NCBI RefSeq assembly: GCF_021129235.1
Contig: NZ_JAJOMA010000002.1
Span: 62,001 to 126,000 of the forward strand
Source: Kineosporia mesophila
GTDB taxonomy: Bacteria; Actinomycetota; Actinomycetes; Actinomycetales; Kineosporiaceae
Length of the DNA stretch: 64,000 nucleotides
Direction: 5' to 3'
This document shows, in pieces, positions 4,294-21,733 of this stretch. The notes beneath the pieces were generated by a model. That model saw nothing but the letters and a program-made list of their open reading frames with translations, was not told where the DNA came from and ran no database searches. The stretch's first letter is position 1, and every line of letters starts with the position of its first letter. Both the position numbers and the translations under genes were made by a program.

Positions 4294-4366
4294 GGGCGCT
4301 ACCTCCTTGAGGAGGAGTGGGCGCGCCAGCCGCATCCACTCCGATGCCTGGCCTGCGTGTTCGTGC

Positions 4367-4400: not shown

Positions 4401-4445
4401 TCAGCAAAAGCGACAGATGACTCTGGTCTGGCGACGAACGGTCGT

Positions 4446-5084: not shown

Positions 5085-5094
5085 GCCGGTCGGC

Positions 5095-5169: not shown

Positions 5170-5182
5170 TCGAAGGATGCTC

Positions 5183-5932
5183 ATGCGCACAGTTCTGATC
5201 ACTGGCGGTACCGGGGGCATGGGGTCCAGTCATGTACGGGCGTTTCATGCACAAGGGGACGCCGTGGTCGTCGCGGGTCTCAACGCGACGGTGGGTGAGG
5301 CGATGGTCGGAGAGCTGGGGGAGAGGTCGCTCTTCGTCCGGCTCGATGTCACGGACGAGGACGACTGGAAAGCAGCGGTGCACGCCGCACAGGAACGGTT
5401 CGGTCCGGTCTCGGTGCTGATCAACAACGCCGGTGTGCAGAATCCGGCCGTATTGCTCGAGGATACCGAATCCGGACTCTGGGAGCGGACGTTCGCGGTC
5501 AACGTCACCGGGCAGTACCTGGGTATCCGGGCGGTGACGGCTTCCATGCGGCGTGCCGGTGGTGGGGTGATCATCAATGTCGGGTCGTCGATGGCCTACG
5601 GCGGGACGGCCCACTTCGCTTCGTACGTGGCCAGTAAGTGGGCTGTTCGGGGGCTGACCCGGTCCGCCGCCCTGGAGCTCGCGAAGGACGGGATCCGGGT
5701 GCTGGCGGTCCACCCGGGCGTCATCTCCACACCTCTCGTGCACGAGCCACCGGCTGACGGGTACCCGGCGCTGGCCGATGTCTTCTCGCCCGAGCCCTTC
5801 GCCGTGCCGCGGCTGGGTCGCCCGGAGGAGGTCAGCGATCTGATGCTGCATCTGGCGTCGTCGCGGGCGGCGTTCATGACCGGCTCGGACGTGGTGATCG
5901 ACGGTGGCCTGTTGCTGGGGCCGGCCGCCTGA
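5183..5932 (+). CDS. Short-chain dehydrogenase/reductase
   Basis: Classical SDR oxidoreductase of 249 residues. It shows the cofactor loop TGGTGGMG, the NNAG motif, the catalytic Ser (NVGSSM) and Tyr/Lys (SYVASK), and a C-terminal family signature (GSDVVIDGG). The ATG at 5183 is preferred over the ATG at 5177 because GAAGG at 5172-5176 directly abuts the latter but is correctly spaced for 5183. The substrate cannot be read from the sequence; the paired TetR suggests induction by a small hydrophobic molecule. Confidence 0.9.
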   Translation: MRTVLITGGTGGMGSSHVRAFHAQGDAVVVAGLNATVGEAMVGELGERSLFVRLDVTDEDDWKAAVHAAQERFGPVSVLINNAGVQNPAVLLEDTESGLWERTFAVNVTGQYLGIRAVTASMRRAGGGVIINVGSSMAYGGTAHFASYVASKWAVRGLTRSAALELAKDGIRVLAVHPGVISTPLVHEPPADGYPALADVFSPEPFAVPRLGRPEEVSDLMLHLASSRAAFMTGSDVVIDGGLLLGPAA

Positions 5933-5959
5933 GGGGCGCGGTGGGGGGCGCCTGGACAG

Positions 5960-5974
5960 TGATAAGCATTATCA
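5960..5974. promoter_or_regulatory. Zur-like palindrome before the YibE/F gene
   Basis: TGATAA-GCA-TTATCA is a perfect 6+3+6 palindrome matching the general form of actinobacterial Zur (zinc uptake regulator) boxes. It ends 15 bp before the ATG at 5990, so bound protein would overlap the promoter or transcript start. Identification as Zur is by similarity to known box shape and to the box at 20978-20996. Confidence 0.6.
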
Positions 5975-5989
5975 TTACCTTCGGCGTCC

Positions 5990-7684
5990 ATGGGCTCCCA
6001 TCATGTTCACGGCGCCGGCGGCGAGGACTTCGCTGTCGGCCGGCGCGCACTGGCCTGGCTCCTGGCGGTGCTGGTACCGCTGCTCGTCGCCACGGTCGTC
6101 GGGATGGTGATGCTGTGGCCCAGTAGTACGCCGCCGGTCGCGCGGCAGGTGACCACCGCTGGGGACGTGTCCCAGGACGTCTACGGTGCGAAAGTGGTCT
6201 CGACGTCGGCGCAGGAGTGCGAGGGATCGTCGGGCGACCGGCTGCCCGACGGATCCATCCCGGCAACGGTGCTCTGTGCCTCTGCGGCCGTGCAGATCTC
6301 TTCCGGTCCGGATGAGGGAGAGTCCGTCACGGTGCAGATCCCGGCGCAGGTGTACCGCGCGGGGGTCAGTCCCGGGGACAGCATCCAGGTGGCTCGCTAT
6401 CCCGGGTCGCTGCTGTCGGGCGAGGACAGCGGTGACGCTGCGGATACCGGTGCGGATGTGGGTACGACTCCGCCCGCTGCTCTGCCGGACGGGACCGTCT
6501 ACGCGTGGAACGACTTCTCCCGTGGCTTCCCGTTGGTCTTGCTGGCAGTGGCCTTTTCGGTGCTGGTCGTGGCCGTGGGCCGGTTGCGGGGGCTGGCGGC
6601 CGTCATCGGTCTGGGACTGGGCTATCTCGCGGTCGTCAAGTTCATGCTGCCGGCGTTACGGCTGGGTGAGAATCCGGTCGCGGTGGCCCTGATCGGTTCC
6701 GTCGCCGTCATGACGGTGGTGCTGTACCTGGCGCACGGGGTCTCGGCGAAGACCACGGCGGCTCTGCTCGGAACGATTTTCGGCCTGGCGCTGACCGCGG
6801 GGCTGGCCGACTGGGCCTCGACCGTCGGGCATCTCAACGGTCTCAGTTCGGAGGAGAACTACACGCTGGCCCAGCTCACCGGGTCATCGGATCTGTCCGG
6901 GGTGATTCTCTGCGGCATCATCATGGCCGGTCTCGGGGTGCTGAACGATGTCACCATCACCCAGGCGTCGGCCGTCTGGGAGGTCCGGGCTCACGCTCCG
7001 CAGCTGGGGTTCGGGAAGCTGTTCGTCAGCGGTATGCGGGTCGGGCGTGATCATCTGGCCTCCACCGTCTACACGATCGCCTTTGCCTACGCCGGTGCGG
7101 CATTGCCCACGCTCATCCTCATCGACCTGTACCACCAGCCCCTGGGGCAGGTTCTGACGAGTGGGCAGATCGCCGAGGAGATCGTGCGCACGCTCGTCGG
7201 GGCGATCGGTCTGGTTCTGGCCATTCCGCTGACGACCGGCGTGGCTGCGGCTGTCGTGGCGTCATCGCCGGGGGCTGGTGGGGTAAGTGTTGGTGGAGTA
7301 AGTGTTGGTTCGGTAGGTATTGGTTCATCGGGGTCCGGGGCGCCGGGGTCCGGTGTATCGGGGTCTGGTGTATCGGGGTCTCGTCTTTCGGAATCTGGTG
7401 CGCTGGAACCCGGGAAGTGGAACGGAAGTCGCTCCGGTCGGCGGCGACGGGACGACGCGAATGACTACCGTGCGGCGCCGTCCCGGGAGCCGGGCGCCGA
7501 TAGGTCTGCTGCCCCGTACTCCGGTGCTCAGGGATCCGGTGGCCATGAGTTCGGTGGCCATGAGCCCGGTGTTCAGGAACCCGGTGGTCAGAAGTCTGGC
7601 GGCTGGGACTCCGATGGTTGGGACTCCGGTGGTTGGGACTCCGGTGGCTGGGAGTCGCCTGGCCGGGAACCGGGGAACCCGTGA
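5990..7684 (+). CDS. YibE/F family multipass membrane protein with repetitive C-terminal tail
   Basis: Protein of 564 residues. It has an N-terminal membrane segment (residues 18-40), an extracytoplasmic domain (about 45-165), and then about seven further membrane segments to about residue 425, with the YibE/F core (VLNDVTITQASAVWEVR and GRDHLASTVYTIAFAYAGAALP). The last 140 residues are low-complexity Gly/Ser/Pro repeats ending in repeated GGWDS units. The family's transported substrate is not established. The Zur-like palindrome just before the start suggests a role under zinc starvation (inference). A possible leaderless transcript is suggested because no clear ribosome-binding site is present. 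Confidence 0.8.
   Translation: MGSHHVHGAGGEDFAVGRRALAWLLAVLVPLLVATVVGMVMLWPSSTPPVARQVTTAGDVSQDVYGAKVVSTSAQECEGSSGDRLPDGSIPATVLCASAAVQISSGPDEGESVTVQIPAQVYRAGVSPGDSIQVARYPGSLLSGEDSGDAADTGADVGTTPPAALPDGTVYAWNDFSRGFPLVLLAVAFSVLVVAVGRLRGLAAVIGLGLGYLAVVKFMLPALRLGENPVAVALIGSVAVMTVVLYLAHGVSAKTTAALLGTIFGLALTAGLADWASTVGHLNGLSSEENYTLAQLTGSSDLSGVILCGIIMAGLGVLNDVTITQASAVWEVRAHAPQLGFGKLFVSGMRVGRDHLASTVYTIAFAYAGAALPTLILIDLYHQPLGQVLTSGQIAEEIVRTLVGAIGLVLAIPLTTGVAAAVVASSPGAGGVSVGGVSVGSVGIGSSGSGAPGSGVSGSGVSGSRLSESGALEPGKWNGSRSGRRRRDDANDYRAAPSREPGADRSAAPYSGAQGSGGHEFGGHEPGVQEPGGQKSGGWDSDGWDSGGWDSGGWESPGREPGNP
7270..7670 (+). repeat. Short tandem repeats encoding the YibE/F tail
   Basis: Degenerate units such as GGTGGAGTAAGTGTT, GGTGTATCGGGGTCT and GGTTGGGACTCCG repeat in phase with the reading frame. 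They give GVSVG, GVSGS and GGWDS repeats at the protein C-terminus. Confidence 0.8.
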
Positions 7685-7922
7685 CTGAGAGACCGATGAC
7701 CAGTCATATGGTTTCGGCCATCCCCGGGGTCTGGCGCTGGCATGGTCGCTTCCTCGCAAGCCTTGGAACGTTGACGGCGAGATGTGGCACCGCAGGTGAG
7801 TGGGAGCTGCCCTGGTGGACAGAGGGCTTCGCTGGGCAAGCCTTGCTGCGTGGTCGACCTGGCTGTCGTGGCCCTTTCGGAAGAGGGATCCTGCCCTCCA
7901 GGTAGCAGGATTCGGAAGATTC

Positions 7923-8386
7923 TCAGAATGGTGGGTCGGGGTAATCGGGAAGATTGCCGGTGGCGGTCCCCCAGGGTTCGCGCTTGCCGCGGTCAGGAGC
8001 AGAACCACTTGAGGAAGAGGAGCGCTCACTGAGGCCACCGCGTCTTCTCCTTGCCGCCCGCGTGATCTCGTCGTTGACTTGTTCGATGTCGCGTTGCCAG
8101 CGTCGGAGGCGGTCGGCGGTGCGCTGGGCCGCGGTCAAAGTGTCGTTCCGGGTGGATGTTGCCGGCCTGATGAGGAATTCGTTGTCGGCTGGTGGCACGG
8201 AAAGGGGCAGGGTCCATCCCGGGCTGCCCGGTAGTACCGGTGGCGGGGACGCATGCACTCTGCCCTCAGGGGTGACCCAGAGAACGGTCCCTGCGGGAAG
8301 GCGTTCATCGGGCCCGCTGAAGCGGGTGCTCCATCCGGCGCTGGTCTTGAGGTTGTGATGAGTTCTGCAAGCCGGATGCAGATTAC
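7923..8386 (-). pseudogene. DUF222/HNH endonuclease, detached C-terminal half
   Basis: Minus-strand remnant beginning at the junction and encoding N-L-H-P-A-C-R-T-H-H-N-L-K followed by a 140-residue tail. This is the second half of the HNH motif (HPACRTHHNLK) found in DUF222 proteins. The missing first half (CDLDHLVPFDEGGTTCPC) is on the same strand at 17467-19349. Joining the two with a single copy of GTAA (TTAC on plus) gives codons TGT-AAT-CTG in frame, so the gene was split by insertion of the intervening 9 kb. It has no start of its own and is presumably not expressed. Confidence 0.9.
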
Positions 8387-8444
8387 TTCTACTTCGCTAA
8401 CCCGGGCTATTCATGGCGAGCCGCGTTCTAGTGGCCGAAAATAA

Positions 8445-8517
8445 GAAAAGTGCCCCCTGAGCTGCAACGATGGAGTTGTCGAGACAACACCGGAGCAGCG
8501 AAAAGGGAGCACTTTTC
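8445..8517 (+). promoter_or_regulatory. Stem-loop covering the transposase ribosome-binding site
   Basis: A 14-bp inverted repeat with one mismatch (8445-8458 against 8504-8517) encloses nested pairs GCTGC/GCAGC (8461-8465, 8495-8499) and GTTGTC/GACAAC (8475-8480, 8483-8488). The ribosome-binding site GGGAG (8505-8509) for the GTG at 8520 lies in the 3' arm. RNA read in from outside would therefore hide it, a known way for insertion sequences to limit transposase synthesis. Confidence 0.65.
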
Positions 8518-8519
8518 AG

Positions 8520-9980
8520 GTGTCAGAGTTTAGCGGATGGGCTGATGACCTGCGGGTAGAAGTCGCCGGACACGGCGTGGTGGCGCATACCGGATCAGTT
8601 GCGGTGCGGCTGCTGGCCGACTGCAGCGGCCTGACCGGGCGCCTCTCGCAGATCATGAACCCGAAAGATGCTCTGGTGGTGCACGATCGAGGTCGTGTCA
8701 TGACCAACACGGCGGTCATGATCGCTGATGGTGGCCGGGTGATGTCGGACCTGGCCGTGCTGCGTGATCAGGGCGAGATGTTCGGGCCGGTCGCCTCGGA
8801 CCCGACTCTGTGGCGGACCCTGTCCGCTGTTGACGCTCATCAGCTGGCCCGGATCGCTGCTGCAAGGGCGAGGACCCGCAGGGTGGTCTGGGCCCAGATC
8901 ACGGCCCGGCACGGGCAGATCCCGGCCGCACGGGTGGCCGGGCAGTGTAATCTCGGCCGGAGCGTCGTGATCCGTCTGGATGCCTCGACCATTCTCGCGC
9001 ACTCCGAGAAGGAATGGGCAGCGCCGACATTCAAGAAGACCTTCGGGCACTATCCGCTCACGGCGTGGTGCGACAACACCGGTGAATGCCTCGCGATCAA
9101 GCTCCGCGCCGGCAACGCCGGATCGAACACCGTCACCGACCACATCGAGGTCCTGACCGAAGCGATCCGTCAGATCCCCGCCGCGTTCCGGCGCGACCTG
9201 CTGATCACCTGCGACGGCGCCGGATCCACGATCGAGCTGATCGAGCTGATCGAGCACATCACCACCCTGAACGCCGCAGCCGGCCGGAAAGTCCACTACA
9301 GCGTCGGGTTCAACCTCGACGAACGCGTCAAGACCGCCATCGACCTGGTCCCGGACGATGCCTGGCAGCACGCCCTGGACGAGAACGGCGAAGCCCGGCC
9401 CCTGGACAAAGCCGCCGTCATCGAACTGACCGGCCTCCTGCGCGAATCGGTCGGCGGGGATCGGCTGAAGACGTGGCCGGCCGGAATGCGGATCATCGTC
9501 CGCCGCGAAAAGCCCCACCCCGGAGCCCAACTGTCCTTGTTCGAACAGCACGAGGGCTGGCGCTACCAGGTCATCGCGACCAACACCCCGGCCACCACCC
9601 GCGGCCAGCTCGCCCAGATAGCCGTGCTCGAGGCCCGCCACCGCGCCCAGGCGAGGGTCGAGGACTGCATCCGCACCGCCAAGGCCACCGGCATGGGACA
9701 CCTGCCTTCCAAGAAGGCCCAGGTCAATCAGGCCTGGCTGGCCGCCGTCGCGATGGCCTGCGACCTGCTGGCCTGGCTGCGCCTGCTCTGCCTGAGCGGC
9801 GACCTGGCCAAAGCCGAACCCAAGACCCTGCGCTACCGGATCCTGCACACATCCGCCCGGATCATCCGCGGCCAACGCCGACGCACCATCCGCATCCCCG
9901 AAACCTGGCCCTGGGCAACCCAACTACGAGACTGCATCCAAGCCGCCCTGACCCTGCCATTCACACCCATCATCACCTGA
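8520..9980 (+). CDS. IS1380-family-like transposase
   Basis: DDE transposase of 486 residues. The first acidic catalytic block is VIRLDASTI (near residue 155), followed by ITCDGAGST (near 232) and a C-terminal acidic/arginine region (ARVEDCIRTAKATGMGHLPS) characteristic of IS1380-like enzymes. It is apparently full length and starts at GTG 8520. Terminal inverted repeats of the element could not be fixed. The right end must lie before about 10165, where the neighbouring gene stops. Confidence 0.85.
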   Translation: MSEFSGWADDLRVEVAGHGVVAHTGSVAVRLLADCSGLTGRLSQIMNPKDALVVHDRGRVMTNTAVMIADGGRVMSDLAVLRDQGEMFGPVASDPTLWRTLSAVDAHQLARIAAARARTRRVVWAQITARHGQIPAARVAGQCNLGRSVVIRLDASTILAHSEKEWAAPTFKKTFGHYPLTAWCDNTGECLAIKLRAGNAGSNTVTDHIEVLTEAIRQIPAAFRRDLLITCDGAGSTIELIELIEHITTLNAAAGRKVHYSVGFNLDERVKTAIDLVPDDAWQHALDENGEARPLDKAAVIELTGLLRESVGGDRLKTWPAGMRIIVRREKPHPGAQLSLFEQHEGWRYQVIATNTPATTRGQLAQIAVLEARHRAQARVEDCIRTAKATGMGHLPSKKAQVNQAWLAAVAMACDLLAWLRLLCLSGDLAKAEPKTLRYRILHTSARIIRGQRRRTIRIPETWPWATQLRDCIQAALTLPFTPIIT

Positions 9981-10165
9981 ACACCGGCCGTCCCTACCCG
10001 AACAACCCGGAGGAACACCCCAGCCGGCCCGTGAACCGGCGGCACCGACCCGACCGTCGGGCCGCCAGCACACCCAAAACCCATCAGAAAGGAGCCCAAG
10101 ATCAACAACCGACAAGAAGAATCCGAACGATCCTCACCCGCGAAGGATCGAGGTCAGTGAGCTTC

Positions 10166-10663
10166 TCAACGACTCGTCTTTAGCACAACCTCTGGCTCCG
10201 GCTCGGCCGGCCACATAAGGAGAAGAAACTCCTCCTTGATGGAATCGTCACCCTGGGATGCGCGAGAGGCTTGACGACCGCGCGCATGAACTCGGATCCG
10301 GTACTGCCCTTCAGCGAGAGTGGGAAAGCGATCGTCGTCACCGGCTTCCTCGACCGTTCCAACCCCGAAGATATCGTCCTCCTCGACCTGCACGGATACC
10401 TCAGCCACGTCCTCCCACTCGTCAAGGTCTCCTTGTTCCGGGCGGTCGTCGCGCACGTCTACGGTAAGTGAAATGTATCCGTCTCTGCGTCCGGTCCGCA
10501 GAATGGCAAACTCCCCGGGTACCGCAGGGAGACCAGGCTCTTTGAGAGCGTCGATCAATCCGTTACCGCGGTTGGGATCCCATTCTGTTGGATCGAAGTA
10601 CTCGCTGCCTTTAAGGTGAAACTGACCATATGAGACGTAAATCTTGCCCGAGGCGGCACCCAT
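10166..10663 (-). CDS. ComJ/Nin-like DNase inhibitor candidate (immunity protein)
   Basis: Protein of 165 residues, cytoplasmic, acidic. The layout resembles Bacillus Nin/ComJ, the inhibitor of the competence nuclease NucA: a start block IYVSYGQFHLKG (Nin: SISYHQF), a central EVSVQVEEDDIFGVGTVEE block and a late LAEGQYRIRVHARG block (Nin: LPKGDYQL). The similarity was recognised by eye and is distant. The upstream gene encodes a secreted NucA/NucB-type DNase, which supports a toxin-immunity reading. ATG 10663 was chosen because GGGAG lies 6 bases upstream; an ATG at 10675 is possible. The 3' end lies next to the IS1380-like element. Confidence 0.65.
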   Translation of the reverse strand: MGAASGKIYVSYGQFHLKGSEYFDPTEWDPNRGNGLIDALKEPGLPAVPGEFAILRTGRRDGYISLTVDVRDDRPEQGDLDEWEDVAEVSVQVEEDDIFGVGTVEEAGDDDRFPTLAEGQYRIRVHARGRQASRASQGDDSIKEEFLLLMWPAEPEPEVVLKTSR

Positions 10664-10770
10664 TGAAACTCCCATCTCTGTGTGGTCCGGTCGGGACAAC
10701 TCTACTGCGGCTTCCCGAGTGCCTGGAGCACGGGCCCCAAAGCGCTCGGGCCTACGCACTCTCGGGACCC

Positions 10771-12072
10771 TTAGGTGGCAACCCAGAACGCGTCTCCGCG
10801 AAGGACTCTATTCTGTGAGAAGAATTTGCCGATCAGGCCGCCCTGCTTGTCGTTCTCGCCTTCGGGTACGTAAGCCCAGCCCCATTCCGAGGCAGGCACG
10901 TTGGCTGCACCCTGCGCCGTCGATGCGAACGGGTATTCATCACAAGAGAAGCCGGAGGGTGCAGCACGCTTGCGCGCCGTGGGGCAGGCTTCATTGCGAT
11001 TGGCGTTAATCTTCGCCGCGGCGGTTTGGCGAACCAGTGGGTTCTTTCCCTTGCTTAGAGTTTTGCTGCCGTAGTGCTTGCTGCCAGCCTTTTGGATGCG
11101 CGCAATGTTTTTGTTGATTTCCGTGAGAACTCTCATCTCCGTCATGGTGGGACGCACCTTGTAGAAAACGCAACCTCCGGCAGTATTGACGGTCAGTTGC
11201 TTGTCGCACCGATACTTTCCTGAGTTGACGATGACATCTTCCATGCCGAAGCTAGGGTGATTGAAAATAAGTCCGTAAACGGACTGATTAACGATCTTTT
11301 TCTTTTTGGGAACGGTGCTCGTGTATTTGACGGTCGCGCTAAACGTGTCGCCCTTAATGAGTACCTGAGGCGTAAATTTAACGTCCGTGCTGCAGCTTTT
11401 CCCACAAAGCACCGTGTATCGAGAAAGGCTTGTTCCGACACCTTCACCGGTCACGGCGAGTACTTTGAAACTGTCCTTTTCGGTCCACTTGAGCTTCCTC
11501 GGGTTAAGAGTCAGGACGCGCTTCATCCGAAGGCGCACGGACCCAACCAGAATACCCTTGCTGTAGTACTTGATGCCTCCGTTCTTCACCCATACGCACT
11601 GGCCGAAGCGGTTTGTCTTGTTGGTAGCGGTGGCGCTGCACGCGGGGGCGGTGACGGCAGGGGCTTTCAGCAATGCGTCAACGCTGCCGTCCGCGTTGGT
11701 GGTGTCGTCCGCAGCGTCGTCGGTGGCGTCGTCGGTAGGGTCTTCGGCGGTCTCGTCCGCCGGATCCTCTTCGGTCTCGTCGTAAGCCTCGTCGTCAGCC
11801 TCCTCGACGACCTCGTCAGCGGGGTCCGCTTCGTCGTCAGCCGTGTCGTCGGCCGTGTCGTCTGTGGGACTGGCGGTGTCATCTGCCGGGATCTCCGCGG
11901 TGTTGCCAGGTACCGTGGGAGCTGTTGCCTCCCAACCATCTTGGACAATCACAACCTCGTTGCCCTCATTGGTCTCTGCCGAGGCAACTCCCGATGGGGC
12001 CACCCCGGCCAGAGTGGCCAACACCAGCGCAGCCGCGAGACGGGACCGCTTGTATCTCTTCGTTTTCAACAC
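10771..12072 (-). CDS. Secreted NucA/NucB-type deoxyribonuclease with acidic linker
   Basis: Protein of 433 residues starting at GTG 12072 with AAGGAG six bases upstream. Residues 1-32 are a Sec signal peptide (RLAAALVLATLAGVAPSGVASA). Residues 35-125 are an Asp/Glu/Thr-rich repeat linker (ADDTADDEADP-like). Residues about 135-335 form an unassigned domain with Cys pairs. The last 90 residues carry the NucA/NucB DNase signature: CPTAR, SCDEYPFAST, and ENDKQGG. It should be secreted and cleave DNA outside the cell or in a target cell. The next gene downstream resembles the Nin inhibitor. Codon usage is poorer in GC than the flanks, consistent with transfer. Confidence 0.85.
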   Translation of the reverse strand: MLKTKRYKRSRLAAALVLATLAGVAPSGVASAETNEGNEVVIVQDGWEATAPTVPGNTAEIPADDTASPTDDTADDTADDEADPADEVVEEADDEAYDETEEDPADETAEDPTDDATDDAADDTTNADGSVDALLKAPAVTAPACSATATNKTNRFGQCVWVKNGGIKYYSKGILVGSVRLRMKRVLTLNPRKLKWTEKDSFKVLAVTGEGVGTSLSRYTVLCGKSCSTDVKFTPQVLIKGDTFSATVKYTSTVPKKKKIVNQSVYGLIFNHPSFGMEDVIVNSGKYRCDKQLTVNTAGGCVFYKVRPTMTEMRVLTEINKNIARIQKAGSKHYGSKTLSKGKNPLVRQTAAAKINANRNEACPTARKRAAPSGFSCDEYPFASTAQGAANVPASEWGWAYVPEGENDKQGGLIGKFFSQNRVLRGDAFWVAT

Positions 12073-12197
12073 TGTCTGCTCCTTAAAGCGAATGCTCGAA
12101 AGGGGCAGTAGTGGACAATGGGGTTAGGGCGACCCATGTGTAAGGTTTGCCACTTTTTGCCTAAAAGGCAGCGAATACCCCCGGGCTGGCCCAAGAA
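12073..12197. other. Region between the DNase gene and the IS5 element
   Basis: It contains the ribosome-binding site and presumably the promoter of the DNase gene (minus strand), and the left flank of the IS5 insertion. A short palindrome-like CCTAAAAGG occurs near 12163. No gene was recognised. Confidence 0.4.
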
Positions 12198-13066
12198 GTC
12201 AGTTCAGAATGAGCAGCCGTGTCGGGTTTGGTTGATATGCCGGTTTGTTGATGATGCTGGTCATGGAGGACGACGTCCTGACGGACGAGATGTGGTTGCG
12301 CCTTGAGCCTTTGCTGCCCGTTCGGGAACGACGGTTCCGCCATCCTGGGCGGCTGCGTGCGGACAACCGTGCGGTGCTGGAAGCGATCTTGTGGGTCGCT
12401 CGGACCGGTGTGGGCTGGAACAGGGTCCCGACCTCGCCGTTCGGTGTCTCGGGAGCCACGTGCTGGCGCCGGCTGGATGAGTGGCACGAGGCTGGGGTTT
12501 GGCAGCGCCTGCATGAACAGCTCCTGGGCGAGCTGCGTGCCGCGGGCAAGCTAGACCTATCAGTGGCGATCGTGGATTCTTCCCACCTCAAAGCCCTTAA
12601 GGGAGGGACCATGTCGGCCCCAGCCCGGTCGATCGGGGCAAGCCCGGTTCCAAGCACCACCTGATCACCGAAGCCGGGGGCATCCCGCTGGCGCTCATCC
12701 TGACCGGCGCCCACCGCAACGACGTCATCCAGCTCCTGCCACTGCTCAAGGCCATCCCCCGGATCCGGGGCACCCGCGGGCGACCCGCCCAGCGCCCCCG
12801 TCGCCTCTACGGTGACCGCGGCTACGACAGCAACCCCCACCGCGCCAAGATCCGCAAGCTTGGCATCACCCCACGCATCGCCCGCCGCAAGACCGCCAAC
12901 GGCTCCGGCCTGGGCGTCCACCGCTGGCCTGTCGAGCGAACATTCGCCTGGCTGCACGGATTCAAGCGTCTGCGCATCCGCTACGAACGCCGCGCCGACA
13001 TCCATCAGGCCTTCATTTCCCTTGCCTGCTCATGGATCTGCCTGCGACATCTCATTCTGAACTGAC
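12198..13066 (+). mobile_element. IS5-family insertion sequence
   Basis: Bounded by 16-bp inverted repeats GTCAGTTCAGAATGAG (12198-12213) and its complement (13051-13066), giving an element of about 870 bp with one transposase in two frames. No convincing target-site duplication was found, because the flanking bases differ. Confidence 0.9.
12245..13065 (+). CDS. IS5-family transposase in two overlapping frames
   Basis: The first frame (12245-12664) encodes the N-terminal part (DEMWLRLEPLLPVRERR) and the first catalytic aspartate (AIVDSSHLKALKGG). The second part, in the -1 frame from about 12601 to 13065, encodes the rest: LYGDRGYDS (second Asp) and VERTFAWLHGFKRLRIRYE (catalytic Glu). The switch must occur in the GGGAGGGACC stretch (12601-12610) just after a TAA in the second frame. 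IS5 members of the IS427 type are known to use frameshifting, so the enzyme may still be made; a simple inactivating mutation is the alternative. Confidence 0.85.
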
Positions 13067-13100
13067 CTCTTAAAGGACCCCTCCGACCATAGCTGCCGCC

Positions 13101-13229
13101 GTGAGCCTCTGGTTACTCGAACAGGTAGACCGATTTGACGCGCTGCTGGAGGAGTCCGACGGCAACAAGGCCAAGGCCACCAGTTCGATACACAAGGCCG
13201 GTCTGTCAAGCTGTTCTCGTGACAGATGA
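13101..13229 (+). CDS. Small ORF of 42 residues, possible gene remnant
   Basis: A GTG-initiated frame (VSLWLLEQVDRFDALLEES, then GNKAKATSSIHKAGLSSCSRDR) begins 35 bp after the IS5 right end and overlaps the next gene's possible GTG start at 13219. It reads like the C-terminal end of a helical protein and may be the tail of a gene cut by the IS5 insertion. No family recognised. Confidence 0.3.
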   Translation: MSLWLLEQVDRFDALLEESDGNKAKATSSIHKAGLSSCSRDR

Positions 13230-14100
13230 GCCGTGGAGGCAGGGTTACCCACGCGATCGGCGCAGCGAAAGCCAGAGGCAGCAGGCGGCGTCCAGTCCGT
13301 TCGGGGACTTCGAGTTCGTCGCTGGTCGAGTGGTGGCGCGGGCTACGGGTGCGCGCGTCTGGATCTGGGACGACAATTCCCAGCCGAAAATGCCTGACCT
13401 GCGCATCCAGTACCCACACGCTCCCGAGCTCGACGGTTACGGCGAGGTGGTCATGGCGGTGAATGCCGATCATGCGGCTCTTGATCGCAAACTGGCGGGC
13501 GGCGGTTCCCTCAGGCGGGAATCATCTCTTCAGTGGGGCTGGTTCCTCACACTCTCGCCGAAGATTCGTCTGGATCGAGATTGGAAGGCCATCGTGGCCA
13601 GCCTGGCTGAATTGGAACGCCAAGGCTTTGACTCGCCGACCTTTTTGCCCATCGATCCGGAAACAGGTTCGGTTGAACTACTGGCTCTTCTCGACCTTGG
13701 CGTAACCGAAATTGCCAGTGCTGCAAGCAATCAGGCTCTGAGCGGAATCGTCGAGCTGTTCACTCCGCCCTGGGGAGGCAAGGTGGCGCCTGACTGGGAG
13801 GGGTTTCAGTCTTGGCTAGCGAACTTCCTCACCTCGAACACCGTGGCCAATAAGCGGGAAAAGCTCGCTGCGACAGGCACGCCGCAACGTCATCTGTTCG
13901 TGGGAATCAGCAGCGCCATGCCCTGGGCGGTGCTGCACGCGCTCGACTACCCGTCGATAGGGCTGCCGCTGTTCGTGCCCCAGCTTCCTGACGAGCTTAC
14001 CCACCTCTGGTTGATGGGCTTGCCCGCCCCATCTCGCTGTATCAGCTGGTGGCCTGATCGATTCTGGTTTGATCCTCAGAGTCGCTGGGCCACGCTCTGA
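13219..14100 (+). CDS. Hypothetical protein, 293 residues
   Basis: Not recognised. The product is soluble and mixed alpha/beta. Its N-terminal part resembles a substrate or nucleic-acid associated domain with LSPKIRLDRDWKAIVASLAELERQGFD cut into two helices, and its C-terminal part has HLFVGISSAMPWAVLHALD and LPDELTHLWLMG. The start is uncertain: GTG 13219 is preferred since the frame further upstream (ATG 13135) overlaps another frame and looks unlike protein. It lies in the island between the IS5 and a lipoprotein gene. The GC content is slightly below that of the flanking chromosome. Island position suggests an accessory (perhaps defence) role, without direct evidence. Confidence 0.6.
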   Translation: MTDEPWRQGYPRDRRSESQRQQAASSPFGDFEFVAGRVVARATGARVWIWDDNSQPKMPDLRIQYPHAPELDGYGEVVMAVNADHAALDRKLAGGGSLRRESSLQWGWFLTLSPKIRLDRDWKAIVASLAELERQGFDSPTFLPIDPETGSVELLALLDLGVTEIASAASNQALSGIVELFTPPWGGKVAPDWEGFQSWLANFLTSNTVANKREKLAATGTPQRHLFVGISSAMPWAVLHALDYPSIGLPLFVPQLPDELTHLWLMGLPAPSRCISWWPDRFWFDPQSRWATL

Positions 14101-14449
14101 CACGGGACACTGCATCCACGAGCTGACTGGAGGCGTGGAATTTCAGGAGCCAATCTAGATCTGCCCGGTCGATGGTTCTGTTGGTAGCGGGCGCTTCCTT
14201 CCTTGTAATACGGCACCTTTGACGGAACGGTCTGGCGGATCTCCGGCGACTCCTTCCATCGCCCAGGAGCCCTCCAGGGCCAGCTACGTCCACAAACGTC
14301 ACTGGTAGGGCTCTGGAGTGAAGCCGATTGGTCCGCTTTAAAAGGTTGCGGGGCGCCGCCATTACTGCCCAGAGTGTGAACGGTGGCACGGTTGAGCAAC
14401 AACGAACGTAGTTCTCGCTCATGGCGACGCCTCGTTTGCCGATCTACGG
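14101..14449. other. Intergenic region, no gene recognised
   Basis: About 350 bp between the hypothetical gene and the lipoprotein gene. Short frames exist on both strands but lack ribosome-binding sites or recognisable motifs. It probably contains the promoter of the lipoprotein gene. Confidence 0.4.
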
Positions 14450-14923
14450 GTGGTGAACAAGTGTCATGGATGGGTCGGCGCGCTCGTCTCACTGCGCTTC
14501 GCCACGCTCACCGCCGGGTGCGGAGGGTCGGACGCAGGCTCGCCAGCAGCGAGCCAAGTCAGGACCACGGCAACTACCCTGACTGCCTCCGGCGACATCT
14601 CTGATCCCTACGTCGTACTCGGCAACGGCGGCAAGATCTCCTACGCTGACGGCGACGGCGGAACCTATTATGAAGAGCCCACGACCGGGCATCAATGCAC
14701 TCACCAAACCTCGGGCGCAGCCGAGGGAACGCAGGTCACGATCACCGACGCCTCGGGCACCGTCGTGGGCATCGGGACACTAGGCCCCGGTTTGCTGAGA
14801 CCCTCTGCCGCGGATACGTGGGATTGCGCGTCATCTTTCAGCGTAAGCGGCATCCTGGCAGGAAAGAGCTTCTATGGGGTGAAGATCGGCGACCACCCCC
14901 CCGAAGCAAGTGTCCGAGTCTGA
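14450..14923 (+). CDS. Small lipoprotein, function unknown
   Basis: Protein of 157 residues from GTG 14450 (a GTG follows at 14453). The N-terminus is a lipoprotein signal ending in a lipobox (FATLTAGCGGSDAGS, lipidated Cys near residue 24). The mature part is Thr/Ser/Gly rich with two further cysteines (HQCTHQ, WDCASSF) that could form a disulfide, and a predicted beta-sheet pattern (EGTQVTITDASGTVVGIGTL). It should be anchored to the outer face of the membrane. No family recognised. Confidence 0.65.
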   Translation: MVNKCHGWVGALVSLRFATLTAGCGGSDAGSPAASQVRTTATTLTASGDISDPYVVLGNGGKISYADGDGGTYYEEPTTGHQCTHQTSGAAEGTQVTITDASGTVVGIGTLGPGLLRPSAADTWDCASSFSVSGILAGKSFYGVKIGDHPPEASVRV

Positions 14924-15162
14924 CCTACAGGGAATCTCACTTTCCATCTATTGATCACCCCGCCCAGAGCAACAAGCTTCCACTAACCTGCCCGCGCAAT
15001 CATCGACGGATGGCCAGAGTGGTTGCGACCACGACCCTGACCTTGGACTCTTTCGTAGGTCTGTGGCGGATTCCGTCTGGGTTCCCGGCGATCATCAGGC
15101 GGCATAAGCAACCCTCCACGATCTTGGTGGAACCTCATCCCAATATGCCGTGGGCGGTTCAC

Positions 15163-16506
15163 CTATAGATCGAACAGGCGTTCTTGCTGCGCTGTGGCCG
15201 ATTCCGGGTTGTGGGATCCGCGCTGACCGGAGCGTCCGTCGCCGTTGGAGGGCGCCGTATCAGGACGCAGGCCCACCTGTCGTGAACCTACCCGGGAGCG
15301 ACCTCCCGGTCGCAGATCGGAAGGATCGCTGAACTCGGCGTAGACCGTCGGCCCGTAGTGGTTCATCAGTTCGTTGCGGATGACATCGCTTCCGGATGGT
15401 GAACTTCCGAACATCCCGATGGCCACGAGCCTCGCGAAGTCGCTACTGGTCAGGGCGTCGTGGACGGTCTCGTACGAGAGGGTTCGGCCGTGCTGCAGAT
15501 AGGCTTCGACCTGTTCGCGGGGCATGCACAACCCCGAAACCATGGTGTGTTCCTCCAGCGCTGGCGACTCCTGCCGGCAGATCTTGACGAAGCTGGGGGT
15601 GTGCAACAGGCGGTAGTTCCCGTCCGTGGCGGCCGCAAGACACCGGGCGTCCAGCTGTTTCATGGCCTTGAGCTGACGATCGAGCTGGGAGTCGGCCGAG
15701 TACGTCATGTTCTTACCCGAGCGGGTCATGCGCTTGTACTGGACGAACACGAAGCTCTTGCGCTGCTGGTGGTAGTACAAAAGGTCCGGCCCGAAATCTG
15801 TTTCCAGCCGGTCCCGGTCGGTGATCATCACCTTCAGGCTTCGGTCGTGCTGGTCCCGGAACCGGCGCACCTTGACCGTATCGGTGAAGTCGTTCTGCCA
15901 GCCCAGAAATGTTCCGGCATCGCGAGCCAAGAGATCGCCCTCCTTAGGTGCCACGTCAATTTCTTGCAGGTCGGGGGCGCCGGTGTAGGCGAGCGCGTCG
16001 GCGGTGGCGTCGCGGCGGGCCATCTGGCTGGGGGTTCCGGGCGTGCGGGGTCGCAGATGCTGCAGCAGAGCGGTGTGGGCAGAAGCGTCGTACGTCTTGA
16101 GGAAGGACAGGACTGCTGTGCTGCCGCCGGGTGTGAACGTTCCGCCACCTTGCAGCAGCGGTTTCTGCTGCTGCTTCTTCAGCACCGCGGCGAGAACGGG
16201 GTGGGGCAAGGGGACCGTGAGTGCTTGTAGCCCGACGAAGGTGAAGAGACGGTGGACGCTGTCCACCAAGTCCTCGTGCCGTATGACTCCCACGTGGGTG
16301 ATCTGCTCACGGATGGCAATGAGCGCGACCTCGGCCTTCGTCCTGCCGGAGACCGCGAAGGTCATTGGCGTCACATGCTCGTCGATCCTCCAGCGGTTCT
16401 GGAAGAAGGCGGCCGTCGGACCTTCGGCTGCGAGCGCGCAGACTCGCGGTGGGCGACTCGAAGCTGTGGCAGGTGCTGACTGAGTCGATTCGCCCGCTTC
16501 ATGCAT
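15163..16506 (-). CDS. Hypothetical protein with possible PD-(D/E)XK nuclease core
   Basis: Protein of 447 residues. The centre contains D-x-GPDLLYYHQQRKSFVFVQYKRM (residues about 240-265), the shape of a restriction-endonuclease-fold active site (acidic residue, beta strands, then Q-x-K). The N-terminal half is helical; the C-terminal 60 residues are Arg/Gly/Ser rich and likely disordered. ATG 16506 is directly preceded by an AT-rich TATATCATTATC element, so the transcript may be nearly leaderless. It sits in the island, where such nucleases are often phage-defence effectors (inference). No partner subunit is visible nearby. Confidence 0.6.
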   Translation of the reverse strand: MHEAGESTQSAPATASSRPPRVCALAAEGPTAAFFQNRWRIDEHVTPMTFAVSGRTKAEVALIAIREQITHVGVIRHEDLVDSVHRLFTFVGLQALTVPLPHPVLAAVLKKQQQKPLLQGGGTFTPGGSTAVLSFLKTYDASAHTALLQHLRPRTPGTPSQMARRDATADALAYTGAPDLQEIDVAPKEGDLLARDAGTFLGWQNDFTDTVKVRRFRDQHDRSLKVMITDRDRLETDFGPDLLYYHQQRKSFVFVQYKRMTRSGKNMTYSADSQLDRQLKAMKQLDARCLAAATDGNYRLLHTPSFVKICRQESPALEEHTMVSGLCMPREQVEAYLQHGRTLSYETVHDALTSSDFARLVAIGMFGSSPSGSDVIRNELMNHYGPTVYAEFSDPSDLRPGGRSRVGSRQVGLRPDTAPSNGDGRSGQRGSHNPESATAQQERLFDL

Positions 16507-16820
16507 TTGATAATGATATAGAAGGGGCCCCTGCCGGCGGCGCAGATGCCTGGACAGTCGGTGGGACGGATAATGGCTTCATATTGCCGTCACCGAGTTG
16601 AGTTGCATCCCGGGCCCTGGCTGCCGACGGGCAGTCGGCACCTCATCGCGGGGGCGACGGTCGCCGCCATCACTTGAGAACTGTTGGAGCGGAGGAAGAG
16701 CGCGGGAGTGCCGCACCCCTGATGTTGATGAGGGTTCCTCGGTAGCGGGCTCGTTCAAGGGTAGTCAGAACGAGGTCTGGCTCGCATGATCGAGGTGATG
16801 CGTTAGGGACAGAAACCGAT
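16507..16820. other. Intergenic region with divergent-gene promoter elements
   Basis: Holds the AT-rich promoter of the minus-strand gene next to 16506. The remaining sequence up to the stop of the HTH gene has no convincing gene. Confidence 0.4.
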
Positions 16821-17399
16821 TTATCGGGCCCGCCCGTGGCTGTCTCGAATCCTTAGCCCCATCCGACTGAGTCCGGACCAGATGGTTTTGGGGTCGACGT
16901 CGAACTGGTCTGCGACGCGGACCAGAGACGAACCGCCTTCGTACAGCCGCGCTGCCTCGTGGAGAGCATCGTCGCTCAAGCCCTGGCGTCGCATGCTGAC
17001 CCCGCTGCGACGCAGGTGCTGCGAAACGGTCACTCGGTGGATGCCGAACTGCTCTGCGAGTCTGTACGTCGTGCGCCCCCTCTGGTAGCCCTCCACTAAT
17101 ATTCGGATCTGCTCGGCGCTCAGCCGCTTCAGCGATGGCTTTGGACTGGGAGGTAGCTCATCGTCAGCTCTGTAACTCTCGGATAGCTGCTCGATACGGC
17201 ACCCCCCTCTGACCAGGGCAAAAGGTTTGAATAACGTCCCAGCAGGTCCACCTTGAAAGACGCTAGTCAAACCCGGTGGTCGACCGACAACGTCGCACCC
17301 ACAATCGCCCTGCGGATTCGTGTATGGGTCTATGGCATCCCCCGTCGGGGATGCGAACCCCGGATGCTCCTTCAAGTCGCTGGCAGCTCCGACTTGCAA
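16821..17399 (-). CDS. Helix-turn-helix protein, possible recombinase remnant
   Basis: The C-terminal 105 residues carry two helix-turn-helix units: TYRLAEQFGIHRVTVSQHLR and LVRVADQFDVDPKTIWSGL, preceded by RLSAEQIRILVEGYQRG. This arrangement is familiar from the DNA-binding ends of actinobacterial resolvase/invertase-like proteins. A TTG at 17399 opens the frame, but the first 60 residues are atypical (Cys/Gly/Pro mix), so the true start is uncertain. It lies 67 bp from the island's right boundary, where an integration or excision protein would be expected. No catalytic serine-recombinase domain is visible. Confidence 0.6.
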   Translation of the reverse strand: MQVGAASDLKEHPGFASPTGDAIDPYTNPQGDCGCDVVGRPPGLTSVFQGGPAGTLFKPFALVRGGCRIEQLSESYRADDELPPSPKPSLKRLSAEQIRILVEGYQRGRTTYRLAEQFGIHRVTVSQHLRRSGVSMRRQGLSDDALHEAARLYEGGSSLVRVADQFDVDPKTIWSGLSRMGLRIRDSHGRAR

Positions 17400-17452
17400 G
17401 ACTGGGCCCCATTTCGCAAATGCGCATTTGGCGTCGTTTTGGCGGACCTACT

Positions 17453-17467
17453 AGCAAGGTACTTGCT
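17453..17467. other. Perfect palindrome at the island's right boundary
   Basis: AGCAAG-GTA-CTTGCT is a 15-bp perfect dyad whose last base is the first base of the boundary TTAC. Dyads at crossovers are typical of recombinase binding sites. No equivalent dyad was seen at the left boundary. Confidence 0.5.
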
Positions 17468-19349
17468 TACAAGGACAGGTGGTGCCGCCTTCGTCGAACG
17501 GGACGAGATGGTCCAGGTCGCAACGATTTGAGGGCACACCGCAGCCCGGGAACGTGCAGGTTTGATAGCGGGCGTTGACCTGATCGGTGAGGACCCGTCC
17601 CGGATGGTAGCGATGGGCCTGCGGCGTTGAATGGTCCCGGCCGTAACTGCACCCGGGCGCGGGGCCTGCTGATGAATCAGGCTGCCCATTGCTTCCTGCC
17701 GCCGCCCCTGGAACCGGCAGCAGGGTGATGTCTCGCGCGGAGACTGCGATGCGGCGGGCCAGGTCGGCGGGGACGGCTCCGTACCCCTGCAACAGGCCGG
17801 GGACGTTGTCGAGACCGAGAAGTGTGGCGTCTGTGATCGTGATGACCAGGTGCGGGCCGTGGCCCTTCTTCCTCGGAAGGCTGGGCAACTCCCACCAGGC
17901 CGGTATCCGGCCCAGCGGAAGAGCGGAGAATCCGAACCCGCCGAAAGAATCGGAGCGCGCCTGGTCAGCGGCTTCGTCGAGGTTCTCATGGGCTCGATGA
18001 CGGCAGGTGGGACAGGCCGCCGGTTCTACGCGCTCATCGGAAGGTCTCGCCGGCCTGGTGACTGCGGCGGCAGTACGGCCGGCATCCCTAGCGTGAGTGT
18101 TCCGGGCGGCATCACCGGACGGCTCGGATGTCCCTGAAGAATCGGGCAGCTCGGACGTCCTGCGCGGCTCGGGCGCCCCGGAAGACTCGGACGTCTTGGA
18201 CGCCCCGGAAGACTCAGGCGTCTTGGGTGCCCCGGAAGACTCGGTTGGTCTGGGCGCCCTAAACGGTTCGGACGGTTCGGACGCCTTGGGTGGCCTGGAC
18301 GGTTCGGCCGCCCTGGACGGCCCGGGTGCACCAGTCATGTCATGTGCGTCGGGCCCGGTGGAAGAGCCGTTCCCCTTCTCGTCCGTCGGTTCTGGTTCTG
18401 GTTCGCCGTCGTCCGCCCGCCGGTCCGTCTCATCGTCTGCCTGCTCGCGGCGGGTGTCATGGGCGAGAGGAATGTCGAGACCTTCAGCCAGAGCCTGGAC
18501 GATGGCGGTCAGGGCGTCGGCCCGGCGCTGTTCGTGTGTGCGCGGATCGGTTCGCCCCTCGGCCAGGAGCCGGTCGCGGCAGGCATCGGCCATGGCGTCG
18601 AGCACGCCGTCGAGGAGCTGACCGTCGTCGGCGGCCAGAATGGCGTGCACAGCGGTCATTCCGTCGGGCAGTAGCTCCGTCCAGACGCTTCGTGCCCGGC
18701 GGGCCTGGGCATGTCGTTCGTTGGCGCCGTCAGGAGCCAGGCCGAGCAGGAGCTGGTCGATGAGAACCTGGAGCGCGTGGTACGGGAGGGAAGGCGCCTG
18801 CTCGGCCAGCGCCACCTGGAACAGGAGCCACTGCGGGCAAACGGGCCCGAACCATTCGGGCTTGTGCGGTGGCCGGTGCAGACGGTCGTTGATCAGCCTG
18901 GCCCTGTCCCAGTCCAGGCGACCGGTCTCGAACAGGGCAGCGATCATGGGAAGGTCGCGGGGTAGTTCGACCGAAGTACGGGCCAGGCTCCAGGCACTGT
19001 TGCGCGAAAGCGTCAGCTCGGGAGCGAGCTGCGCCGAGACGAGTGAACCGGACCGGATCTGCGAAGCGGTGTTGGGACCGAACGCATCGGTGAGTGTTTC
19101 GTCTTCTGGTGTGGGCCTTTTGCTGTTCCGGGTGGATCGCGGACTGCGCTGCACCGGCTGGGTGTGCTCGACCAGTTCTCTCACGCAGCCGAGCTGCCAG
19201 GCCCTCAGTTGCCGCAGCATGAGTTCGCTGTCGACGATGCTCTGCAGAAGAGCGCCGTTCGAGGATCTGTCGGCATCCAGGACCCGGGCCAGGGCGTCGG
19301 GCGAGACGAAAGCCTCTGTGGACATGAGTCCTTCGCTGAGCATGCTCAT
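17467..19349 (-). pseudogene. DUF222/HNH endonuclease, N-terminal part (interrupted)
   Basis: Encodes the DUF222 (13E12-like) helical domain (residues about 20-260), a variable Pro/Ser/Glu-rich repeat linker (about 325-400), and the start of the HNH nuclease motif (YQTCTFPGCGVPSNRCDLDH, then FDEGGTTCPC). Translation runs into the inserted element and stops at 17451 after K-Q-V-P-C. The second half of the nuclease lies at 7923-8386. The catalytic HNH pair is thus broken and the product is probably inactive. Starts at ATG 19349 or one of two nearby in-frame ATGs. Confidence 0.9.
18123..18330 (-). repeat. In-frame repeats in the DUF222 linker
   Basis: Degenerate units of about 24-30 bp containing CCCGGAAGACTC and similar. 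They translate to repeated ESSGAPKT-like segments rich in Pro, Glu and Ser. Confidence 0.75.
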
Positions 19350-19475
19350 GAGTGAAACCCCCGTCTCGCCCGGATCGTCGCGGTCCCCACCGCCCAGAAC
19401 CGATACTAGACGCCCCCACCGACAATCTTCCCCGGATCCGGCGTCCTCTGCCGAAAGCCCCAGATCAGTGACACA

Positions 19476-19721
19476 TCACTGCTTTTTGTAGCGCCTTTCG
19501 AAGCGGGCGATGCGGCCCTCGGTGTCGGCGGTGCGGGCGCGTCCGGTCCAGAACGGATGGCTGGCGCTGGAGATCTCCACGTCGACGACCGGGTAATCGT
19601 GGCCGTCCTCCCACCGGATCGTGCCTCGGGAGGCAATGGTCGAGCGGGTGAGGAAGGCGGTGCCGGAACTACGGTCGCGGAACACGACCGGGCGATATTC
19701 AGGGTGGATGCCAGGTTTCAC
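19476..19721 (-). CDS. rpmE2: 50S ribosomal protein L31 type B, zinc-independent
   Basis: L31 paralogue of 81 residues ([37 protein letters not shown]). It lacks the CxxC zinc ligands of the primary L31, so it can replace the zinc-containing protein when zinc is scarce. It starts at GTG 19721, one base after the stop of rpmJ2, with AGGAAGG upstream. It forms a small zinc-responsive operon with the CobW-like gene and rpmJ2. Confidence 0.93.
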
Positions 19722-19722
19722 G

Positions 19723-19845
19723 TCAGCCCTGCCTTCCTTTCCATCGTGGGTTCTTCTTGTTGATGACGAAGACCTTGCCGCGTCGGCGTACGACGATCGA
19801 CCCCGGCTTCTCCTTGAGCGACTTCAGTGAGGCGCGTACCTTCAT
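19723..19845 (-). CDS. rpmJ2: 50S ribosomal protein L36, zinc-independent paralogue
   Basis: Forty residues ([16 protein letters not shown]... to NPRWKGRQG). The usual three Cys and one His of zinc-binding L36 are absent ([19 protein letters not shown]), so this is the C-minus form. ATG 19845 is preceded by AAGGAG. The stop is separated from the rpmE2 start by a single base. Confidence 0.93.
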
Positions 19846-19865
19846 GAACTCTCCTTAACGGTATT

Positions 19866-20960
19866 TCAGGCGCTGAGGTCGTCGATGTCCATCTCGTCGT
19901 GATCCCCGAGCCAAGGTCCGAAACCGTCGTCCGTCCCGTTCCAGCGACCGAGTCCACGCTCCATCTCCTGGTCGGTCAGGAGAGCCCGGTGGAAGGCTCT
20001 GCGTACCGAATCCCGTTGTGGACCGGTTCCGGTGACGCGCAACCGGGTGGTCCGCACCTCTCCCGACCAGGTGCCGGCCGTACCGATGCTGAGCTGGCCG
20101 CCGGCACCGTCCCAGATCCCGACGACCGAGGGTCGCCCCGGCAGCCAGAAGGTTCCCCGCGCTCTCATCGGCCCGTCGCCGAGACCTTGTAGTTCGGCGT
20201 GCAGACGGTCCGGGTGGAAAGGTTTATGAGAGTGCAGGTCCAGCGACCAGATCTCCTGGGTGTCGGTGGAGCGAATGGCGGGAAGGCGGGTCAGGTCTCC
20301 CCGGGAATCGTCCGGAGAGCGGTGGACTCCGACCAGCGACGGTGTATCAACCTCATTGATAACGCTTCTCGGTAGATCGGGACTGGTCAGATGGTTGATC
20401 AGATTGTGTTCGCGACGTCCTGCTGGGGTGTCGAACAGGATGATGTCCGCGTATTCCAGTTGGGTGGCGAGCGCCTCACCCACCGATCTGCGATCGTCCG
20501 GGTGGAGTTCGAGACCACGTTCGGCGAGCAGGTCGTCACCGAAGAGGTCGTCGAAAAGGCTTGCCGGGGAAACGGCAGCGATCACTGCCGCAGCCCTCGC
20601 TCCAGGTAGCAGGCCTGCTCCCGGCCAGGGCTGGACGGCGTGGATCAGGGGATGGGGCTCGGTGCTGACCGGTAGGCCGACGATGATCTGCGTGGGCCGC
20701 TGCGGAGAACCGAGCAGCCCACGGAGCACCGGCAGCAGATCCTCGCGTAGCGCGCACGACAGGCAGCCGTGGTCCAGTGGTTGTGTGTGCTTGTCCCGGA
20801 TGCCGGACCAGTCGTGCACCACCCGGTGCAGATGGCCGTCCGGGGTGATGTCGTGGCGCACGGCCACGGCTTCCGGAAGGTCGAGAAGCATGGCTGCGAT
20901 GGCGCTGTCGCGCAGGACCGGGTCGATCGAGGCGACGGTCAGGACGGGGACGTCGGGCAT
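19866..20960 (-). CDS. CobW/P47K-like protein without Walker A motif
   Basis: Protein of 364 residues with the CobW-family cysteine motif (LDHGCLSCALREDLLPVL, near residues 64-80) and the C-terminal CobW domain (GTFWLPGRPSVVGIWDGAGG). At the N-terminus, where the GxxGxGKT nucleotide loop should lie, the sequence is VASIDPVLRDSAIAAML, so GTP binding is doubtful. This form is typical of the variant found beside zinc-free ribosomal protein genes in actinobacteria. Members of the wider family are metal chaperones. The start is 18 bp from the Zur-type palindrome. Confidence 0.85.
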   Translation of the reverse strand: MPDVPVLTVASIDPVLRDSAIAAMLLDLPEAVAVRHDITPDGHLHRVVHDWSGIRDKHTQPLDHGCLSCALREDLLPVLRGLLGSPQRPTQIIVGLPVSTEPHPLIHAVQPWPGAGLLPGARAAAVIAAVSPASLFDDLFGDDLLAERGLELHPDDRRSVGEALATQLEYADIILFDTPAGRREHNLINHLTSPDLPRSVINEVDTPSLVGVHRSPDDSRGDLTRLPAIRSTDTQEIWSLDLHSHKPFHPDRLHAELQGLGDGPMRARGTFWLPGRPSVVGIWDGAGGQLSIGTAGTWSGEVRTTRLRVTGTGPQRDSVRRAFHRALLTDQEMERGLGRWNGTDDGFGPWLGDHDEMDIDDLSA

Positions 20961-20977
20961 GCGGCCAGCTTAGATGG

Positions 20978-20996
20978 ATTGAGAATCATTTTCAAT
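20978..20996. promoter_or_regulatory. Zur box between divergent zinc-response operons
   Basis: A 19-bp near-perfect palindrome, ATTGAGAATCATTTTCAAT (two mismatching positions), of the Zur type. It lies between the CobW-like/rpmJ2/rpmE2 operon (minus) and rpmB2/rpsN2 (plus), so one bound repressor could silence both under zinc sufficiency. Confidence 0.8.
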
Positions 20997-21042
20997 AAGA
21001 TAATCTGGTGCCGTTTCATTCCCGGCTCTCCTGGAGGCAGGC

Positions 21043-21279
21043 TTGTCCCGCGTTTGCATGGTCACCGGTGCCGTTCCCGGCTTCGGTCACTCCATCTCCC
21101 ACTCCCACCGGCGTAACAAGCGGCGGTTCGACCTCAACATCCAGTCCAAGCGGTACTGGGTGCCGTCCCTGGGCCGGAGCGTGACGCTGACCGTCAGCGC
21201 ACGGGGCATCAAGACCATCGACCAGCGCGGCATCGATGCCGTGGTGCGGGCGATCCGGGCGCGCGGGGTGAGGCTCTGA
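21043..21279 (+). CDS. rpmB2: 50S ribosomal protein L28, zinc-independent paralogue
   Basis: Seventy-eight residues (MSRVCMVTG, then [20 protein letters not shown]). Only one of the four zinc-binding cysteines remains, so it is the C-minus form. It starts at TTG 21043 with GGAGG six bases upstream. The stop overlaps the ATG of rpsN2. It lies directly behind the Zur box. Confidence 0.92.
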
Positions 21280-21584
21280 TGGCGAAGAAGAGCAAGATCG
21301 CCCGTGATGAGCAGCGTCGTGAGATCGTCGCCCGGTATGCCGAACGTCGTCTCGAGCTCAAGCGGCTGAGCGTGAATCCGCAGGTGTCCGAGGCCGAGCG
21401 GGCTGGGGCGATGGCGGCCCTGCACCGGCTGCCCCGAAATGCGTCCCCGACCCGGCTGCGCAACCGCGACCTGGTGGACGGGCGTCCGCGGGGGTACCTG
21501 GGGCGGTTCGGGCTCTCCCGGGTGCGTTTCCGGGAGATGGCCCACCGTGGCGAACTGCCGGGAGTGACCAAGTCGAGCTGGTGA
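21279..21584 (+). CDS. rpsN2: 30S ribosomal protein S14, zinc-independent paralogue
   Basis: S14 of 101 residues, the long form without CxxC pairs ([58 protein letters not shown]). It is translationally coupled to rpmB2. L33 and S18 paralogues that often accompany this pair elsewhere are missing here. Confidence 0.93.
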
Positions 21585-21733
21585 ACAGGGGAGGGCGGGC
21601 CGTGCCGTCATTCGGCACGGTGCTGCCCTCCTGGTGCGGTCGGCGGAAATGGGTGGGGGGACGACCTCACAATCGGGGGGTGCCGGAGCGTTTACCTGGT
21701 GACGGGGCAGGTGGTCGGCAGGGGAGGGGAACC

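Follow-up and report, generated by a model that had tools for sequence, protein, structure and literature searches.

A DUF222/HNH gene of Kineosporia mesophila split at a TTAC repeat by a 9,080-bp mosaic island

In the window (the whole 64,000-nt stretch of DNA analysed from the soil actinobacterium Kineosporia mesophila), a gene of the DUF222/HNH family, which is common and nuclease-like, lies on the minus strand in two halves, separated by an island with a copy of TTAC at either boundary. The features of the locus are listed below, G004 being a genome of the genus and L022 its corresponding locus.

7923..8386, minus strand: portion of the split gene encoding the C-terminus, bounded by the junction and by the stop at 7923 (open frame, comparison with G004)
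8383..8386: TTAC, the 4-bp repeat at the left boundary (sequence and L022 alignment)
8387..17466: inserted island, 9,080 bp, absent at the G004 site (L022 alignment)
8387..8396: 10 bp (TTCTACTTCG) between the left repeat and the IS1380 end
8397-10157, plus strand: IS1380-family element, 1,761 bp, complete (NF033539 and end motif)
10166..10759, minus strand: 197-aa gene adjoining the NucA/NucB gene (no family in Pfam, NCBIfam, PADLOC or PHROGs)
10771..12072, minus strand: NucA/NucB-domain protein, 433 aa (PF14040, 1.3e-13)
12195..13069, plus strand: IS5-family element with an interrupted transposase frame (inverted repeat, NF033580)
13135..14100, plus strand: 321-aa ORF (NCBIfam, PADLOC and PHROGs without a match)
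14450..14923, plus strand: 157-aa ORF whose product looks like a lipoprotein by eye (NCBIfam, PADLOC and PHROGs without a match)
15163..16506, minus strand: 447-aa ORF (distant homologues, GxDLLYY...FVxxQYKR-like motif)
16821..17399, minus strand: gene of a helix-turn-helix (HTH) protein, towards the right end (PF13936 and PF13384 slightly above the cut-off, HTH_7 below it)
17257..17466: last 210 bp of the island, at its right end (matched only in this genome by the searches made)
17467..17470: TTAC, the 4-bp repeat at the right boundary (sequence and L022 alignment)
17471..19349, minus strand: N-terminal part of the split DUF222/HNH gene (ORF, PF02720, comparison with G004)

The right half belongs to an ORF at 19349-17451 on the minus strand (632 aa), which runs into the island and meets its stop there, and it carries the DUF222 domain of the 13E12 HNH family (PF02720, 8.6e-27 in Pfam). 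It reads ...TTCPC before passing into island sequence, following the HNH motif as far as TGT CCT TGT AA. Read from the junction on the minus strand, the left half (NLHPACRTHHNLKTSAGW...) carries on the same HNH-type motif in an open frame, NLHPACRTHH..., with no internal stop. With one TTAC copy kept, the coordinates give 1879 + 464 = 2343 nt, that is, 780 codons and a stop. Neither half matched an HNH profile in Pfam or NCBIfam; by eye, the HNH-type pattern C...GC...CD.DH..PF..GG..C.CNL.P.CR.HH is kept in nine sequences of the genus and across both halves. A hairpin with a 6-bp stem lies inside the gene at 8364-8382 and ends directly before the left TTAC; it may be due to chance, given that the scan returned 7 terminator-like sites against 6.8 expected.

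An orthologue was sought in six genomes of the genus (that of the window and five relatives), and one relative had it (G004, locus L022; 89% and 81% identity in two pieces), the remaining four giving weaker matches only, with identities of ≤56%. Several members of the DUF222/HNH family are present in each genus genome searched. The G004 gene is an uninterrupted, 745-codon open DUF222/HNH frame that reads ...GCAGATTACAGGGACAGG... across the site. L022, an 18-kb stretch, is syntenic with window 1-24655, and the synteny extends to both sides of the gene (window 1-5963 at 94%, 18394-22112 at 93%). Window 7913-8386 aligns with L022 10565-11034 and window 17467-18157 with L022 11031-11721; position 8386 corresponds to 11034 and 17467 to 11031, so that the flanks overlap by exactly four bases, TTAC, and no base is gained or lost at the join. 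Recombination between DUF222 paralogues was rejected because both halves match this single G004 gene in synteny. Between aligned blocks, the Pro/Ser-rich linker of the DUF222 protein (18157-18394) spans about 237 bp compared with 69 bp in G004. Next to the split gene, a YibE/F-family gene (PF07907, window 5990-7684) is absent from the G004 neighbourhood, where the stretch from window 5963 to 7913 is represented by only about 185 bp.

Both halves are close to the G004 gene. The N-terminal part shows 87% amino acid identity over 570 codons (dN 0.071, dS 0.363, dN/dS 0.20) and the C-terminal part 83% over 150 codons (dN 0.102, dS 0.490, dN/dS 0.21), with no internal stop in either. Most of this divergence likely predates the insertion, and the dN/dS values therefore show only that decay has not yet begun. 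The insertion would have been recent enough that neither half has decayed, and the gene is presumably inactivated. The empty site was seen in one of the five relatives searched, and the observation of the split gene is confirmed. The preliminary description, made from the letters of this DNA, had stated that the frame can be restored at TTAC to 780 codons, with which the coordinates and the uninterrupted G004 gene agree. It had also proposed that an uninterrupted copy be sought in relatives, and G004 has one, with the same join and no bases missing. Its view of one precise insertion rather than two independent relics is upheld by the G004 empty site and by the divergence of both halves from the same G004 gene with similar dN/dS.

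The island is a mosaic of the IS1380-family element, the NucA/NucB-domain gene and its partner, a broken IS5 element, orphan genes and the HTH gene. Its G+C content in 1-kb bins is 57-67%, against mostly 64-75% elsewhere in the window. The IS1380 transposase (8520-9980) matched NF033539 in NCBIfam (5.5e-76, 255.8 bits against a cut-off of 180), and the two ends of the element rank 1 and 2 of 127,960 positions for an end motif built from eight ends, both of its own among them; transposase and matching ends alike place it in the IS1380 family. Homology to IS1380 copies in G002 and G001 starts at 8396 and 8398, and thus the end of the element lies about 10 bp inside the island. The element has no duplication of its own, the flanking tetranucleotides being different (TTCG and TGAG), nor was any clear duplication seen by eye at the two IS1380 copies compared in G376. 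The IS1380 part has matches in 69 plasmid records, none exceeding 80% of the query; no plasmid record matched its left 124 bp. The IS5 element has an inverted repeat at 12193-12213/13051-13071 (95%), a match to NF033580 of 95.6 bits, below the cut-off of 110, and, by eye, no duplication at its flanks. As searched, neither element has a near-identical second copy in this genome, where the next best match is at 69%, besides partial copies at 86-89%.

The N-terminus of the NucA/NucB-domain protein resembles a secretion signal by eye. Its gene and the 197-aa gene were matched together at two loci, in G005 and on contig C60 of this genome; the C60 match includes only 53 bp of the nuclease gene, and a G004 locus matches the nuclease part only. 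The two genes may encode a nuclease that is secreted and its partner, for instance an inhibitor. The 447-aa protein has weak homologues in four plasmid records and in three of the 392 genomes of the order that were searched, one of them this genome, and it shares its GxDLLYY...FVxxQYKR-like motif with two genome homologues. A sequence search of the PDB gave no relative, its one row being at chance level (E 0.64). The protein is a possible PD-(D/E)XK-type nuclease, and possibly one of a mobile element. At two plasmid loci carrying its relatives, integrase genes lie within about 1-4 kb.

Towards the right end, a 435-bp stretch (16822-17256) of the HTH gene region recurs at other loci of the genus and matches G004 at 82%, on another contig. 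A block of about 45-50 bp upstream of the HTH gene (about 17207-17256) is common to loci in G001, G004 and G005, and the homology ends sharply at its outer edge; at one G005 locus (L043), the block is matched without the gene. By eye, a reading of the HTH gene as an integrase tail was rejected, since no recombinase ORF was seen upstream of it at the G004 and G005 loci. Among 396 genomes searched, with two first-look candidates scored per genome, the 4.4-kb right part of the island (13072-17466) is whole only in this genome, and three others have short partial matches. DNA searches found no match to 13072-17470 in plasmids or to 10158-17470 in phages.

In simulations of 200,000 blunt insertions, an overlap of four or more bases was reached in 2.6%. 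The 4-bp overlap is thus modest evidence, and a duplication of the target is likely without being certain; this figure has no bearing on the split, on where it lies or on the intact relative. From 8384, the sequence TACTTC occurs twice in tandem, and no inverted repeats abut TTAC, both by eye. By eye, TTAC seemed the centre of an appealing dyad symmetry, which was dropped, since its 9 of 18 positions at the junction of the joined island ends are equalled by 25% of 20,000 random pairs. Elements of the IS608 type target TTAC, and this origin was set aside with no Y1 transposase or TnpB among the ORFs scanned.

The intact orthologue, the exact junctions and the content of the island are direct observations, and the event resembles a commonplace insertion of mobile DNA. 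Our tentative reading is that the 9,080-bp mosaic island entered the intact gene in one event, with the four bases TTAC within the HNH motif duplicated, or used, in the process. Entry would have been by transposition with a 4-bp staggered cut, and the IS1380 element beside the left end would most likely be linked to it, carrying neighbouring DNA in the manner of ISEcp1. The absence of duplications around IS1380 and IS5 themselves would point to later rearrangement within the island. In PMC12116815, the IS1380 family is given duplications of 4-5 bp, and one copy is described as moving a large neighbouring segment by means of a far end that matches poorly (at 4 of 14 bases) and leaving a duplication of 5 bp. 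TTAC around the whole segment fits this size range, with the 2.6% chance given by the simulations, and the IS end lies 10 bp from the island end, a closeness with a probability, by hand arithmetic, of roughly 0.3% for one randomly placed element and about 0.5% when either of two IS elements might have been the close one. Some IS1380 copies begin their end motif with CTAG, which here lies 12 bp inside the right end; it was noticed post hoc, and CTAG is present within the preceding 16 bases at 0.37% of window points (CTAG or TTAG at 0.63%).

Other features speak against this route. The duplication does not adjoin the left inverted repeat, 10 bp intervening, and the right end is at background for the IS1380 end motif (rank 58,526 of 127,960), for which reason an IS1380 right-end motif at that boundary was rejected. 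The element also lacks a duplication of its own, as do, as far as is clear, the G376 copies, and the TTAC overlap may itself arise by chance. The comparison with ISEcp1/ISEc9 of the same family is similarly divided: according to PMC12116815, these share with the island a segment of several genes bearing a lone IS1380-family element at one end, a short duplication and a poorly matching far end, which can be very poor, but their duplication abuts the left inverted repeat, whereas here 10 bp lie between and the far end scores no better than background for the IS end motif. It is quite improbable, if conceivable, that the IS1380 transposase cut beyond its own end motifs at both ends of the segment, by about 10-12 bp (CTAA lies 10 bp inside TTAC, CTAG 12 bp). 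If true, this would be a variant of one-ended transposition with displaced ends, inserting at TTAC, and the mechanism would matter only if such cutting were shown.

Transposition linked to the IS1380 element is what we favour, with some hesitation, over end-joining capture or a lost integrase. Capture of a linear fragment by non-homologous end joining at a double-strand break with 4-nt overhangs, whose fill-in would have duplicated TTAC, seems rather unlikely. The genome has a Ku gene (PF02735, 6.3e-51), the joined ends have neither a significant dyad nor, by eye, inverted repeats abutting TTAC, and the tandem TACTTC might read as filler; yet the closeness of IS1380 to the boundary would then be a coincidence, and junctions without loss at the target are not the usual outcome of end joining. 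An assembly artefact joining unrelated sequence across a repeat is very improbable: the draft genome is in 61 contigs, but the island lies inside a contig of 420,807 bp and, as searched, the genome lacks a near-identical second copy of either IS.

The remaining route, a serine (phiRv1-like) or tyrosine integrase acting at a DUF222 attB, with its gene lost later, perhaps by an IS1380-adjacent deletion, we regard as unlikely. In its favour are the short shared core, the frame-exact join without inverted repeats abutting the core, the conserved HNH codons as a plausible attB, and one large serine recombinase in the genome (553 aa, contig C34, recognized by its three domains). phiRv1 of M. tuberculosis also sits inside a sequence of the 13E12 family, REP13E12, and carries the serine recombinase Rv1586c, according to PMC9317374, and a survey of mycobacterial prophages treats it as a PICI-like element (PMC10654092). 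The island differs in that a Resolvase-domain search of the genome found no place in it, the sole one being on C34, in that PHROGs matched only transposase and HTH families among the ORFs scanned and no structural gene, and in that the junction dyad is at the level of random pairs. Pfam gave no site-specific recombinase catalytic domain in ten ORFs (eight of the island and the two gene halves), and no tyrosine integrase was found among the ORFs scanned with Pfam, NCBIfam and PHROGs; as these searches gave no site-specific recombinase for the island, it is not expected to excise itself. Nor were the joined island ends, with up to three mismatches, found in the 12 kb around the C34 recombinase, near which the island right end has only a 12-base match (E 0.12). 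The preliminary description had also linked the site to phiRv1, and that part of it was not supported by the recombinase searches and the dyad.

Its further suggestion of a recurrent choice of DUF222 genes is unsupported: at the best 80 of at least 531 loci for the gene region, all 80 read through, the matched range spanning the junction (query residues 90-91), and since a list of the best 80 disfavours split genes, this speaks only weakly against recurrent use of the site. Viral contigs gave three unsplit relatives in one search and none in another, and the literature retrieved by joining DUF222, HNH and integrase held, judged by title, nothing on this topic.

In its IS mosaic, nuclease-domain gene pair and orphan genes, the locus resembles ordinary IS-bearing genomic islands that disrupt accessory genes, with nothing different in kind, and the finding adds a documented case to a class already known. 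It provides a clean before/after pair, resolved to the exact join, for the insertion of an island in Kineosporia, and shows that one DUF222/HNH gene can be split with both halves undecayed.
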